Source: Fibrobacter sp.
GTDB lineage: Bacteria > Fibrobacterota > Chitinivibrionia > Chitinivibrionales > Chitinispirillaceae
Reading direction: 5' to 3'
Length of the DNA stretch: 37,711 bases
NCBI GenBank assembly: GCA_012728995.1
Contig: JAAYEB010000065.1
Coordinates: 1-37,711, forward strand
Below the pieces are notes generated by a model. That model was not told the DNA's origin, ran no database searches, and saw nothing but the letters and a program-made list of their open reading frames with translations. Position numbers and translations under genes: made by a program. Of the stretch, positions 3,056 to 8,326 are shown in pieces (positions within the stretch are counted from its first letter, which is position 1; each line of letters starts with the position of its first letter).

Positions 3056-5593
3056 TCAAGACAGATCAGGATTGTCAAGTTCGACATCTACCGGATTTAC
3101 ATTCCATATCTCTTCAGCATATTCTTTTATTGCTCTGTCTGAAGAGAAAGTGCCCATGTTTGCAACATTAATAATTGACTTTTTAGTCCAGACTTCAGGT
3201 TCGTTAATATAAAGTTGCTCTACATATTCCTGGCATTTCATATAAGATTCGAAATCTGCCATTATCATATATTTATCACCATGCTTCAGTAAAGAATCGT
3301 AAATTGGTAAAAACATATGTGGTTCCTCAGGACTAAAATAACCCGAGGAAATTAAATCTATTACCTTTTTAAGCTGTTGATTGCTGTTATAAAAATCCCA
3401 TGGATTATAACCTTTTTTCTGAAATTCTTCAATTTCTTCTGTATGCAAACCAAAAATAAATATGTTATTATCCCCTACCTGTTCCTTTATTTCAATATTT
3501 GCTCCATCCATAGTACCAACAGTCAAAGCACCATTTAATGCAAATTTCATATTACCGGTTCCTGATGCTTCTGTACCGGCTGTTGATATTTGTTCAGATA
3601 TATCAGTTGCGGGAATTACATACTCGGCTAATGAAACCCGATAATTCGGTAGGAAATGAACTTCCAGCAAACCCTTAGTATCCGGATCGTTATTGATCAC
3701 ACCAGAAACATTATTAATAAACTTAATTATTAATTTGGCCATATAATACCCGGGTGCTGCTTTACCTCCAAATAATATTGCTCTTGGAACAAAATTTTCT
3801 GTTTCTCCAGATTTTATTTTATTGTACAAAGCAATCGCATGAAGAACCTTTAGCAGTTGACGTTTATATTCATGAATTCTTTTCACATGAACATCAAATA
3901 ACATATTCGAATCCAGATGAATACCTTCCCATTTAAGCATCTTTTCTACAAAAAGTTTCTTACAGAAATTCTTTGCTTCACGCCACCTTTTTAAAAATTC
4001 CGGATCATCTACAAAAGAAAGAAGCTTTTTTAATTCAAACAGATCTGTAACCCACTTGTCGCCAATTTTGCTGCATATCAAATCTCTCAGGAATGGATTT
4101 GATTTATAAAGCCATCTTCTCTGCGTAACCCCGTTTGTTTTACTGTTAAACTTTGAAGGCCACATATCAGAAAAATCACGTACAAGTCCGTTTTTTAATA
4201 ACTCAGTATGCAGTTTGGACACTCCGTTTACAGAATGACTACCTACTATCGCAAGAAAGGCCATCCGTACTTTTGGCTCACAGTCCTCTTCAATTATTGA
4301 CATTCTACGTAAACGGTCTGTATCTCCCGGAAATTTATATGATACCTGACGTAAAAATCTGGCGTTTATCTCGAAAATTATTTCCATATGCCTGGGAAGA
4401 AGCGTTTTCATTAAAACTACCGGCCATTTCTCAAGTGCTTCAGGCATAAGTGTATGATTAGTATATGCAAATGTTTTGGTTGTAATGTCCCACGATGTAT
4501 CCCAACCCAAATTATGTTCATCAAGCAGAAGCCGCATTAGTTCAACAATAGCTATTGCAGGATGAGTATCATTAAGCTGAATTGAAACTTTCTCGGGGAA
4601 ATTATCAAAATCATTATTCAATTGAAGATATCTTCGTATTATATCCTGAAGTGATGCAGAAGTAAAAAAATACTGTTGTTTCAATCTTAATTCTTTACCT
4701 GATACATTGTTGTCATTAGGATACAAAACTTTTGATATGTTTTCACTGTTTATTTTATCCTGACATGCACCAATATAATCTCCATTGTTAAAGTACTGCA
4801 GGTTAAACTCCTCTGCAGCTCTTGCAGACCATAACCGAAGTGTATTCACATTATTAACACCATAACCAGGAACAGGAATATCATACGGCAAAGCAATGAC
4901 ATCTTCTGTATCTATCCAGGCAATTTTCAAATTACCACCATCATGGTAAAACATGGTTTTGCCATAATATTTGATTTTAACCTTATATTCAGGTCTTTCT
5001 ATTTCCCACGGATTAATATACTGCAGCCATAACTCGGGCGTTTCGTGTTGTTGCCCGTTAATAATTTTCTGATTGAAAATGCCAAAATCATATCTTATGC
5101 CATATCCAACAGAAGGAAGTTTTAAAGTTGCCATTGAATCGAGATAACAGGCAGCTAATCTTCCGAGCCCACCATTCCCAAGACCGGCATCATGCTCCTG
5201 ATCAATAATGTCTTCGAAATTTAATTTAAGATCATTTAAAGCTTTTTCACATGAATTACCAATTTTAAGGTTAAGGATATTATCGGCCAATAACCTGCCA
5301 AGCAAGAACTCCATTGATAGATAGTAAACCCTCTTTACATTATTTGTATGATACTGTTGCCTGCTGGATATCCACCTCTCAATTAGACGCTCCCTTACTG
5401 AATATGACAAACTCAAATATTCATCATAAAGAGTTTGTGAATAATTGTCTTTAGCAATGTTATACTCAAGATTGCTCAAAAATGCTCTGCGAATATCCTC
5501 TGATGACATACCTTTATGATGGATATACCATTGGGGAAAATTGTTTTGTTTACCAGTCTCTTTTTGTTTTTGTCTTTTTGTTGTTTCATTCAT
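3056..5593 (-). CDS. glgP: Glycogen/starch phosphorylase
   Basis: An 845-residue enzyme, the full length of classical GT35 glycogen phosphorylases. It releases glucose-1-phosphate from alpha-1,4-glucan using phosphate and pyridoxal phosphate, in the cytoplasm. Family landmarks are readable: VYYLSMEFLLGR (about 90-101), GLGNGGLGRLAACYLDS (about 137-153), IHEYKRQLLK and the cofactor-binding region EASGTGNMKFALNGA. Lys683 in GNMKF is the expected Schiff-base lysine. The N-terminal regulatory region (WYIHHKGMSSEDIRRAF) is intact. The gene stands alone on the minus strand with 805 non-coding bases upstream. No glycogen synthase or branching enzyme lies in the window, so the pathway context is missing. 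Confidence 0.95.
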   Translation of the reverse strand: MNETTKRQKQKETGKQNNFPQWYIHHKGMSSEDIRRAFLSNLEYNIAKDNYSQTLYDEYLSLSYSVRERLIERWISSRQQYHTNNVKRVYYLSMEFLLGRLLADNILNLKIGNSCEKALNDLKLNFEDIIDQEHDAGLGNGGLGRLAACYLDSMATLKLPSVGYGIRYDFGIFNQKIINGQQHETPELWLQYINPWEIERPEYKVKIKYYGKTMFYHDGGNLKIAWIDTEDVIALPYDIPVPGYGVNNVNTLRLWSARAAEEFNLQYFNNGDYIGACQDKINSENISKVLYPNDNNVSGKELRLKQQYFFTSASLQDIIRRYLQLNNDFDNFPEKVSIQLNDTHPAIAIVELMRLLLDEHNLGWDTSWDITTKTFAYTNHTLMPEALEKWPVVLMKTLLPRHMEIIFEINARFLRQVSYKFPGDTDRLRRMSIIEEDCEPKVRMAFLAIVGSHSVNGVSKLHTELLKNGLVRDFSDMWPSKFNSKTNGVTQRRWLYKSNPFLRDLICSKIGDKWVTDLFELKKLLSFVDDPEFLKRWREAKNFCKKLFVEKMLKWEGIHLDSNMLFDVHVKRIHEYKRQLLKVLHAIALYNKIKSGETENFVPRAILFGGKAAPGYYMAKLIIKFINNVSGVINNDPDTKGLLEVHFLPNYRVSLAEYVIPATDISEQISTAGTEASGTGNMKFALNGALTVGTMDGANIEIKEQVGDNNIFIFGLHTEEIEEFQKKGYNPWDFYNSNQQLKKVIDLISSGYFSPEEPHMFLPIYDSLLKHGDKYMIMADFESYMKCQEYVEQLYINEPEVWTKKSIINVANMGTFSSDRAIKEYAEEIWNVNPVDVELDNPDLS

Positions 5594-5831
5594 TGTAAAA
5601 TCCCGAAGAATTAATTTTAAAAAAATTTAAGTATACCTTAAGTTTAAATAGAAAGAAATAAAAAAATGAATCATTTGTAATTTAAATTCTCATTTTTAAC
5701 CTGTTTAATAAAATTGAAAAATAACGGAGTCAGTATGTTTTGGTACGATAATTTAGATACATAACGCTTTTTAAAATATAGATTTAATTATCTCTTTTTT
5801 TTAAGAAAAAATGAGATTTTCATTAATTTAA

Positions 5832-5845
5832 TTGGATTAATCCAA
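5832..5845. promoter_or_regulatory. Perfect 14-bp palindrome
   Basis: TTGGATTAATCCAA equals its own reverse complement. It lies about 240 bases upstream of the glgP start and 13 bases outside the left inverted repeat of the GC-rich island. It could be an operator for a dimeric regulator or part of a decayed element. No neighbouring regulator gene supports either reading. Confidence 0.3.
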
Positions 5846-5858
5846 ACAAAAAAATTTG

Positions 5859-6085
5859 TTTATAAGAAATCTTATTTTAGTGTTCCTTTCGGGGATGGTT
5901 AAACCCCTGCGCCTTCAGACCTGTAGTGGTACTGCGACAAGAGAAATAAGATATATACTCCGGCTAAAGCCGATGGGTTTAAACGATGATTTTGACATTA
6001 AACTACGACAGACTAAAAGCGAATTGCATTTGCAATCGAATTCAAGTCGATATGTAACTCAGTTTATTACAAGATTTCTTTTAAC
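5859..6085. repeat. GC-richer inverted-repeat element, possible MITE-like remnant
   Basis: A 227-base segment bounded by imperfect inverted repeats (5859-5873 with 6071-6085, complementary at 13 of 15 positions, including the 10-mer AAGAAATCTT). Inside are TTAAACCC (5899-5906) with GGGTTTAA (5975-5982), a CGGC-TAAA-GCCG hairpin (5961-5972), ATCTTATTT (5869-5877) with AAATAAGAT (5944-5952), and an imperfect palindrome at 6011-6048 whose 18-base arms match at 12 positions. Base composition is unlike the flanks. A non-autonomous mobile element remnant is the simplest reading, and a structured RNA is possible. No target-site duplication is convincing: AATCC(C)AAACAA recurs at 5839 and 6086, but at unequal distances from the ends. 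Confidence 0.4.
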
Positions 6086-6398
6086 AATCCCAAACAATCA
6101 AAATACACTGAAAACCCCAATAGCCAAATAAAAGCTAAATCATATATGTCAGGATAATGACTCTTAAAGTACTAAACATAAAGAATTAAAATTTTGGCGA
6201 TTTAAATTCAAAGCATATTAATTATATAATGTCACTTCCGAGGATACTTTTATTTTTCTATTTTAGACCGGTTTGATACCAGATAAAACGATTTAATTAA
6301 AATCAAAAAAAAGAATGTTCTAAAAAACCTAAGATGTAAAAAATGAATTTGTTCTCTAAAAATTAAATAAAAAACGTGAGTTACATTTAAAAAATTTA

Positions 6399-6728: not shown

Positions 6729-7217
6729 ATGGAAAAAATTATCATAAGAGAAATAAACTGTTTGGATCTTGATACAATTTTTGATATTGAAAAGGATTCA
6801 TATTCTAATCCTTGGACTTTAAATGATTTAGAAACAGAAGTTCAGAATTCTTTTTCTAAGAATTATCTGATCAAAAAATCAAAAAATATAATCGGATATG
6901 CATTTACACACATAGTAATAGATCAAATGCAGATAAACAATTTTTGTATATCAGAGAAATTTAGAAGATGTGGATATGGAAAAATTTTACTAAATAGCAT
7001 ATTAGCTTATATAAGGACTGTGAATATTAAATGTGTGTACCTGGACGTACGCGAGGGTAATATTCCAGCTTTAAAATTATACAGTTCTTCGGGATTTAAA
7101 ATAGATTGTATAAGAAAAAACTATTACTCTGATGGAGAAAATGGGATATTGATGTCAAACAATATAGGGGGTTATACAGATACACTTTCTACCTGTTCCA
7201 TAGAACAATTACCGTGA
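6729..7217 (+). CDS. rimI: Ribosomal-protein S18 N-acetyltransferase RimI-like
   Basis: A 162-residue GNAT-fold acetyltransferase. The acetyl-CoA pyrophosphate-binding motif RRCGYG lies at about residues 79-84, preceded by the strand NNFCIS. The C-terminal half, YLDVREGNIPALKLYSSSGF then RKNYYSDGENGILM, is the standard RimI pattern. RimI acetylates the N-terminal alanine of S18, though close relatives act on other N-termini. The typical family end is just after ILMSNNI; here the frame runs on for 16 residues (GGYTDTLSTC and more) and overlaps the 3' end of the convergent bactofilin gene by 46 bp. That suggests loss of the ancestral stop codon. No clear Shine-Dalgarno precedes the ATG. Confidence 0.8.
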   Translation: MEKIIIREINCLDLDTIFDIEKDSYSNPWTLNDLETEVQNSFSKNYLIKKSKNIIGYAFTHIVIDQMQINNFCISEKFRRCGYGKILLNSILAYIRTVNIKCVYLDVREGNIPALKLYSSSGFKIDCIRKNYYSDGENGILMSNNIGGYTDTLSTCSIEQLP

Positions 7218-7522
7218 AAAACTGCTCCTTCATTGATTATCAGATCTTTTGTATGTATATCGCCAATTAATGAAGAATTGGCTTCTAATTCAACTCTGTC
7301 TTCAACTGTTAAATTTCCAATAACTTTTCCACCAACAATGGCACTTTTTGCAATAATATCAGCTTCAACAACACCAGAATTCCCTACAGTTAAGATTTCT
7401 GAAGTTTCAATTTTCCCTTTAAAATTACCATCAATACGAATACTGTGCGGTACTGTTATAGTTCCTTCGAATGAAGTTCCTTCACCAATAATCGTATAAA
7501 GTCCTTTATTTCCTTTATCCAT
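7172..7522 (-). CDS. Bactofilin
   Basis: A 116-residue bactofilin (DUF583): a short N-terminal tail, then a repetitive right-handed beta-helix seen as FEGTITVPHSIRIDGNFKGKI, VGNSGVVEADIIAKSAIVGG and GNLTVEDRVELEAN at roughly regular spacing. Bactofilins polymerise without nucleotide into filaments that scaffold cell-shape enzymes, including M23 peptidases, and in Myxococcus position ParABS components. The gene lies 15 bases behind an M23 peptidase gene and closes the parAB series, matching both known roles. A strong AAGGAGT Shine-Dalgarno supports the start. Its last 46 bases overlap the tail of rimI. Confidence 0.92.
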   Translation of the reverse strand: MDKGNKGLYTIIGEGTSFEGTITVPHSIRIDGNFKGKIETSEILTVGNSGVVEADIIAKSAIVGGKVIGNLTVEDRVELEANSSLIGDIHTKDLIINEGAVFHGNCSMEQVESVSV

Positions 7523-7537
7523 AATAACTCCTTGAGA

Positions 7538-8326
7538 TTATTCATTTTGAATCAATAAAAATTTTGACGGATCAATGTTTTTCTCATCTTTTAGTACTTC
7601 ATAATGAAGATGTGGAGCAGTTGATCTTCCAGTATTACCAACGAGAGCAATTGTTTGGCCTCGATTAACTCTTTCATGTTTTGAAATCAGAACCTGGGAA
7701 CAATGTCCATAACGTGTTGAATAACCATGTTCGTGTTTAATAGTTACAATTAATCCTAAATATTTATCAGTTTCAATTTCATCAATAATACCTGGAGCTG
7801 TTGCGCGAATAGGTGTTCCTCTTGATGCAGCAAAATCAACACCTTGATGACCATTAACAGAATCTGATGAAAATGTACGAGTAATCCACCCTTCAACAGG
7901 AGTTATATTAGGAATAGATACGATTTGCTCATTTAACAAGTCATTATTGGATTCAGTAATTTTAGAATTGCTTTTTGAATAGAGTATTTTTATTTCTGTA
8001 TCTATATCTTTTTTATCCTCATCAATAACTGCAAGATTTTCAATATATCTGCAGAATTTTTCAATGTTTTCAATTTTGTTTGAAAGAGAACATAATTGTG
8101 AATTTTCTAAAGCTAATTTTTCATTTTCAGATTTAATTACATGTAGAAGTTGTAATTTGGCAGCAATTTCACCTGATTTAAAAATCAAAATTAAAAGTCC
8201 TGCTATAAAGATAAAAAATAAAATAGAAATAGAAAAAATTATATATTTATGTATTCGTAATGTGAACGATTTTCCATTATTTTCGGGAAAAAACATGAGT
8301 GTAATTATTTTAGATTTTTTTTTCAT
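7538..8326 (-). CDS. M23 family metallopeptidase, membrane-anchored
   Basis: A 262-residue protein: cytoplasmic N-terminus, one transmembrane helix (about 28-50), a coiled-coil stretch (about 52-97) and a C-terminal LytM/M23 domain (about 145-255). The zinc-site motifs are complete: HQGVD with His160 and Asp164, and HLH with His239 and His241, plus His208 in YGHCS. It should therefore be an active peptidoglycan endopeptidase facing the periplasm. The start codon overlaps the parB stop by 4 bases (ATGA), indicating translational coupling, and a bactofilin gene follows. Bactofilin-M23 pairs are known cell-shape modules (for example in Helicobacter and Leptospira), which supports that role here. 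Confidence 0.9.
   Translation of the reverse strand: MKKKSKIITLMFFPENNGKSFTLRIHKYIIFSISILFFIFIAGLLILIFKSGEIAAKLQLLHVIKSENEKLALENSQLCSLSNKIENIEKFCRYIENLAVIDEDKKDIDTEIKILYSKSNSKITESNNDLLNEQIVSIPNITPVEGWITRTFSSDSVNGHQGVDFAASRGTPIRATAPGIIDEIETDKYLGLIVTIKHEHGYSTRYGHCSQVLISKHERVNRGQTIALVGNTGRSTAPHLHYEVLKDEKNIDPSKFLLIQNE

Follow-up and report, generated by a model that had tools for sequence, protein, structure and literature searches.

The window, the whole stretch of 37,711 nucleotides analysed here, is contig C464 of a host draft genome of 4.97 Mb in 486 contigs (genome label G000). A carbohydrate phosphorylase gene (845 aa, 3056-5593, minus strand) and a GNAT acetyltransferase gene (6729-7217, plus strand), both assigned by Pfam, diverge from a gap of 1.1 kb. 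This gap holds an island that a sequence-only reading had outlined at 5859-6085 as GC-richer than its surroundings, rich in nested inverted repeats, marked by a CGGC-TAAA-GCCG tetraloop hairpin and without a coding explanation. These properties were borne out: positions 5881-6062 have 41.8% GC, compared with 18.5% at 5594-5880 and 23.2% at 6063-6398; the nested inverted repeats are present; the tetraloop hairpin lies at 5961-5972 and is unique in the window at up to one mismatch (0.02 expected); and the 91-aa frame that runs across the island matches no Pfam family. Promoter and terminator scans yielded no excess over shuffles. Further along the window, on the minus strand at 7172-8326, a bactofilin gene adjoins an M23 peptidase gene (Pfam).

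The limits of the island had been drawn too generously, by about 20 bases at either end, because the matched ends used to define it fall outside the stretch common to other copies in the host genome (5876-6062); the shared unit is about 5881-6062, or 182 bp. These matched ends, 13 of 15 positions between 5859-5873 and 6071-6085, do exist, but they are at chance level, since a pair of at least 13/15 at a spacing of 100-260 was found in 102 of 200 dinucleotide shuffles of 5601-6340 (16 of 25 in a smaller run). The real 5601-6340 region contains three separate pairs of this quality, including the one reported, and two of the three are unrelated to the island; the total of eight overlapping registers in the region was matched by 4 of 200 shuffles. 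No terminal inverted repeats were seen by eye at 5881/6062, the exact limits being inferred from the shared ends and the IS608 model. The position of the matched ends beyond the shared unit, and their chance-level quality, led to the rejection of a classical MITE, which has terminal inverted repeats and target duplication. The case shows that matched ends in AT-rich DNA can mislead on the limits of an element. The parts of the window copy are as follows.

5877-5880, plus strand: TTAG in the flank, presumed target and left cleavage site (cleavage role by analogy with IS608)
5881-6062, plus strand: very likely a decayed copy of a non-autonomous IS200/IS605-type element, left to right end (homology to the copies on C84, C143, C182 and others)
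5881-5899, plus strand: conserved sequence TGTTCCTTTCGGGGATGGT of the left end, which matches its counterpart in the IS200-type element of genome G007
5901-5904, plus strand: AAAC, presumed left guide (by analogy with the IS608 guide AAAG)
5905-5921, plus strand: eroded left hairpin with the loop TTCA at 5914-5917 (sequence and copy alignment)
5936-5972, plus strand: conserved core GACAAGAGAAATA...CGGC-TAAA-GCCG, including the tetraloop hairpin at 5961-5972 (copy comparison and pattern)
6035-6051, plus strand: sole remaining right-end hairpin, ATCGA-ATTCAAG-TCGAT (sequence and alignment of copies)
6059-6062, plus strand: TCAG, presumed to end the element and to serve as its right cleavage site (right-end alignment; role by analogy)

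BLAST of the 227 bases against the host's own genome identified a second copy on C84 (72% identity over 121 bases, with a longer alignment also obtained), which ends in the palindrome CTCCTCAACTTAAGTCGAGGGAG followed by TATTCTCAG. Used as a pattern, the C84 right end occurs at 7 places in the host genome at up to 3 mismatches, and its reversed control at none. A profile (R1) built from four copies (the window, C84, C182 and C143) matched 22 places in the host at E ≤ 10 and 14 at E < 0.01; the latter comprised the four training copies, C50, C94, C76, C12, C69, C142, C312 and C128, as well as C73, a transposase tail, and C462, which was dropped. A second profile (R2), built from 13 copies, matched 16 places at E < 0.001, namely the 13 training copies together with C73, C37 and C7. 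With the apparent left-end remnants seen by eye on C30 and C284, the tally stands at 17 remnants without recognisable tnpA (the 13, C37, C128, C30 and C284) and two transposase tails (C73 and C7). Thus, what the host genome contains is a set of dispersed copies and not the single unconserved copy that the sequence-only reading had named as evidence against itself. Open reading frames of at least 100 aa are not overlapped by 12 of 15 copies, and are touched by the remaining three (C76, C69 and C142) only at the edges, over 48 nt at most; C126, C302, C128 and C30 were judged with short flanks only. Several matches were not counted as copies: C468, C452, C312:23180 and C52 (R1), C202, C156 and C94:43818 (R2), and C137 (right-end pattern). 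The R1 matches on C462 and C275 of the host were dropped, since both fall within long open frames, of 292 and 256 codons, that encode near-identical proteins; these two loci (L112 and L114) represent a repeated gene whose frames start near MENQKFTYSLGSIPGFTARTVRLVEKVYLQ.

BLAST of the 227 bases in 59 relatives gave no match at E ≤ 0.001, the core pattern was absent from 149 relatives, and searches of phage and plasmid DNA produced no matches. Neither the core nor the right-end pattern occurs in genome_contigs or viral_contigs, collections that may omit records of or near the host genome, so that they offer no independent lineage to confirm the family. The C84 copy gave BLAST matches at E 0.005-1 in 98 of the 149 relatives, which were short and scattered and were taken as chance; those in G010 and G133 were read and are not copies. 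Among five right-end matches in relatives, only the one in G007 is a right end; at those in G003, G031, G045 and G108 the palindrome is missing its upstream half (by eye). The two profiles point to the same place: R1 had one match at E < 0.01 in 40 other, related genomes and R2 one match in 38 other genomes, both in G007, a genome from the host's family and a different genus.

The G007 locus (C275:19353-19887 of that genome; L047, 1500-2034, minus strand) is a 535-bp IS200-type element, broken but nearly complete, extending from TTTAG to TCAG, which begins with TTTAGTGTCTCCTTTCGGGG and ends with GAACCCGTCGATTTAAAGTCGACGGAGAATTCTCAG. It contains a Y1 transposase gene, tnpA (PF01797, E = 1.5e-12), broken by three internal stops. 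The initial TTTAG is common to the window, C84, C182 and the G007 element. The family consensus aligns with the G007 left end over ~57 nt (more loosely to ~90) and with its right end over ~60 nt, and in neither case did any of 500 shuffles score as well; the window left end alone scores 33 against the G007 left end, with a shuffle maximum of 26 (0/500). The consensus middle (85-165), in contrast, could not be aligned with the G007 element, since 489 of 500 shuffles scored as well. Over the loci covered by a pattern check, this left end occurred in the window and G007 only; 16 other PF01797 loci of relatives were also read. In the host itself, C73 starts with the last transposase codons (TDEMIQQYIDEQEG...), followed by the same right end, and C7 carries a similar transposase tail and a similar right end (by eye). 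Sequence comparison thus suggests that the family consists of an IS200-type left end (~57-90 nt, to about the tnpA start), an IS200-type right end (~60 nt, starting in the tail of tnpA and closing with TCAG) and a middle of ~70 nt that the G007 element lacks.

An alternative is that the copies are full IS200-type elements that decayed independently, each losing tnpA by internal deletion, and that they never moved as a small unit. This account agrees with the strong divergence of the copies (47-73% identity to the window copy for the 12 others in alignment A5), with the tnpA-tail remnants C73 and C7, with the internal deletions that C182 and C94 have of their own, and with the alignment of C312 and C126 over the right-hand part only. 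However, about ten copies (C464, C84, C143, C50, C94, C76, C12 and C69, and in part C182 and C142) share the middle for which the IS200-type element has no aligning counterpart, and separate deletions would not yield an identical new middle. We therefore regard independent decay as unlikely.

The ends could be compared with those of IS608, in which, according to PMC5934647, the guides AAAG and GAAT pair with the cleavage sites TTAC at the left and TCAA at the right, respectively. The corresponding places in the family have TTAG with AAAC (left, in the window) and TCAG with GAAC (right), such that, by eye, the same positions can pair as in IS608, with both partners of the last pair exchanged. 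The tetranucleotides thus fit the IS608 pairing pattern by eye, and by analogy they would serve as guides and cleavage sites. At the right, GAAC and TCAG occur together in 4 of 11 ends (C73, C84, C142 and G007; by eye), whereas the other seven (C182, C12, C143, C312, C126, C302 and C128) depart at the guide, the site or both. The right guide of the window copy is gone, and recognisable guide/site pairs are kept in only part of the copies. Relative to IS608, the sites (TTAG/TCAG) and guides (AAAC/GAAC) of this IS200-type lineage appear to have changed in concert, in agreement with the model in which base pairing determines the choice of target. AAAC, a hairpin and TTAG can be made out by eye in that order, with an ambiguous stem foot, at the right ends of two distant plasmid loci of the IS200 type: L188, where the match has no annotated CDS, and L189, where tnpA is annotated. 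L187 and L190 show no clear fit to this arrangement. In protein comparisons, an 82-aa stretch of the G007 protein matched 29 of 150 genomes at E ≤ 0.001, including G007 itself; among the matches listed beyond G007, the best had E = 5.8e-7, with identities of 25-33% and one 33-residue match at 48%. The same stretch matched six plasmid records at 34-41%, three of which are named IS200/IS605 family transposase.

Of the palindromes near the ends, the right hairpin is evident in most of the 11 aligned right ends, the left one is eroded, and the fuller copies have two right-end hairpins, one equivalent to that of the window and a terminal one that the window lacks. In the window copy, the right hairpin is followed by 11 nt up to TCAG (6059-6062), the same distance as after the terminal hairpin in other copies. 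The simplest account is that two similar hairpins were fused into the one of the window by a deletion between them. Core deletions mediated by repeats are known from Haloquadratum PATEs (PMC3119063). The C94 copy (L105, 1660-1711) shows a like change, its two right-end hairpins apparently fused, perhaps by deletion between the palindromes.

An unrecognised structured RNA had also been suggested for the island; it could be a riboswitch, an IscB/TnpB guide RNA or another kind. In favour of this reading, the 227 bases fold better than shuffles as minus-strand RNA (z = -2.78) and as single-stranded DNA (z = -2.85); the plus-strand RNA gave z = -1.09, and three other copies folded as DNA gave z = -0.86, -1.78 and -2.12. 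The right-end hairpin is paired in 85.1% of the alignment cells, against 28-53% with slid partners. However, it shows no more covariation than shuffles do (191 of 500 reach the same level), as would be anticipated for copies in decay, and the copies decay freely. Rfam returned nothing at gathering score for the window, and the matches up to E 10 for the window and the C84 copy were irrelevant and far below gathering scores. Guide-RNA families such as HEARO are included in the Rfam library. The host genome has no RRXRR (IscB-type) domain, and a guide RNA of the IscB/TnpB kind was dropped on the basis of this absence and the Rfam result. Accordingly, we give a structured RNA almost no credence.

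The island had further been likened to a REP unit, and the family could in principle be REP/BIME-like and mobilised by a TnpA-REP (RAYT). The copies are intergenic, several of them lie beside convergent gene ends, and they contain hairpins. Moreover, the left and central hairpins show inverted similarity in the window copy (3 of 500 shuffles as good) and in C143 (1 of 500), yet the consensus does not show it (54 of 1000), and in six further copies it is weak or missing (23, 24, 70, 103, 191 and 483 of 500). An inverted left end inside the element is weakly supported and is not claimed here. REP units are described as shorter, with GTAG-type guides (PMC6006769; PMC3733652). The present unit is ~182 bp long with ~17 remnants, no GTAG/GTGG guide is recognised at a hairpin foot, its ends correspond to those of a full IS200-type element that encloses tnpA, and no Y1 domain (PF01797) was found in the assembly, which makes the REP reading highly improbable.

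With its dispersed copies and with both ends matching an element that contains a broken Y1 gene, the family agrees best with another suggestion of the sequence-only reading, a non-autonomous mobile element with IS200/IS605-type ends. The unit of 182 bp is too short for a transposase and has none inside. Transposase-free IS605-type elements are already known as PATEs (PMC3119063), and we conclude with high confidence that 5881-6062 is an old, degenerate copy of such an element. An odd non-coding island is thereby explained as the relic of a mobile element, an ordinary kind of bacterial remnant.

By analogy with IS608, the subterminal hairpins would fold when the strand is single during replication and would be bound by a TnpA (Y1/HUH) made elsewhere and acting in trans. 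Pairing of AAAC with TTAG at the left and of GAAC with TCAG at the right would set the cut positions, and the element would leave as a single-strand circle and insert again on the 3' side of another TTAG, with no target duplication. Probably an IS200-type TnpA mobilised the family in trans, after which it spread and then decayed. The mobilising enzyme itself was not seen, because neither the PF01797 domain nor an intact tnpA was found in the host draft assembly. This, together with the eroded left stem and the loss of the right guide and the terminal hairpin, indicates that the window copy is very probably immobile now. As for the ~70-nt middle, it might have been acquired as a hairpin module, perhaps an inverted left end, and have helped the element to compete for TnpA, or the host may later have used it as a 3'-end or regulatory element beside genes, but we consider either role improbable.

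No earlier description of this family was found in the literature covered, which left subscription journals mostly outside its scope. Since PATEs, ends-only IS605 sequences and stem loops are already known, we place the family among them as a new, decayed member. The PATEs of Haloquadratum walsbyi, as described in PMC3119063, likewise have no transposase. They have IS605-like near-terminal palindromes but no terminal inverted repeats, and their core deletions were put down to recombination between repeats, features that the window family seems to share. They differ in being archaeal and in that some types are homogeneous with strain-specific insertions, whereas every copy found here is old and diverged; in addition, the element related to the window family carries tnpA. 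The elements of the IS200 type (tnpA only) and IS608 (PMC5934647) share subterminal hairpins at both ends and, by eye, guide/site pairs in the same positions, and in G007 a Y1 gene lies between the same ends; the family differs from IS608 in lacking tnpA, in having TTAG/TCAG and AAAC/GAAC instead of TTAC/TCAA and AAAG/GAAT, and in the additional middle. An ends-only IS605 sequence of Halanaerobium hydrogeniformans is also bacterial and is called PATE-like by its authors, but one sequence is reported there (PMC7290912), whereas the window family is dispersed. The free-standing IS605 stem loops of Borrelia plasmids are, similarly, intergenic end hairpins without a transposase gene, but they are described as single stem loops (PMC2775950), unlike the two-ended elements found here. 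REP/BIME sequences with TnpA-REP are likewise hairpin repeats between genes, and the enzymes that recognise them belong to a related class, but these repeats are given as 21-65 nt long, with a GTAG-type guide and often a high copy number (PMC6006769), which does not hold for the window family.

The copies on C142 (L110), C182 (L103), C94 (L105) and C12 (L107) sit between convergent ORFs, and at the first three of these an ORF ends inside the copy or within ~20 nt of it; the copies may thus affect transcript 3' ends. Finally, the copies on C128 (L113, 508-672, minus strand) and C30 (L117, 210-372) combine the family left end with a seemingly different middle (GGGTAATT.AAA after the left end), and perhaps form a second subfamily.
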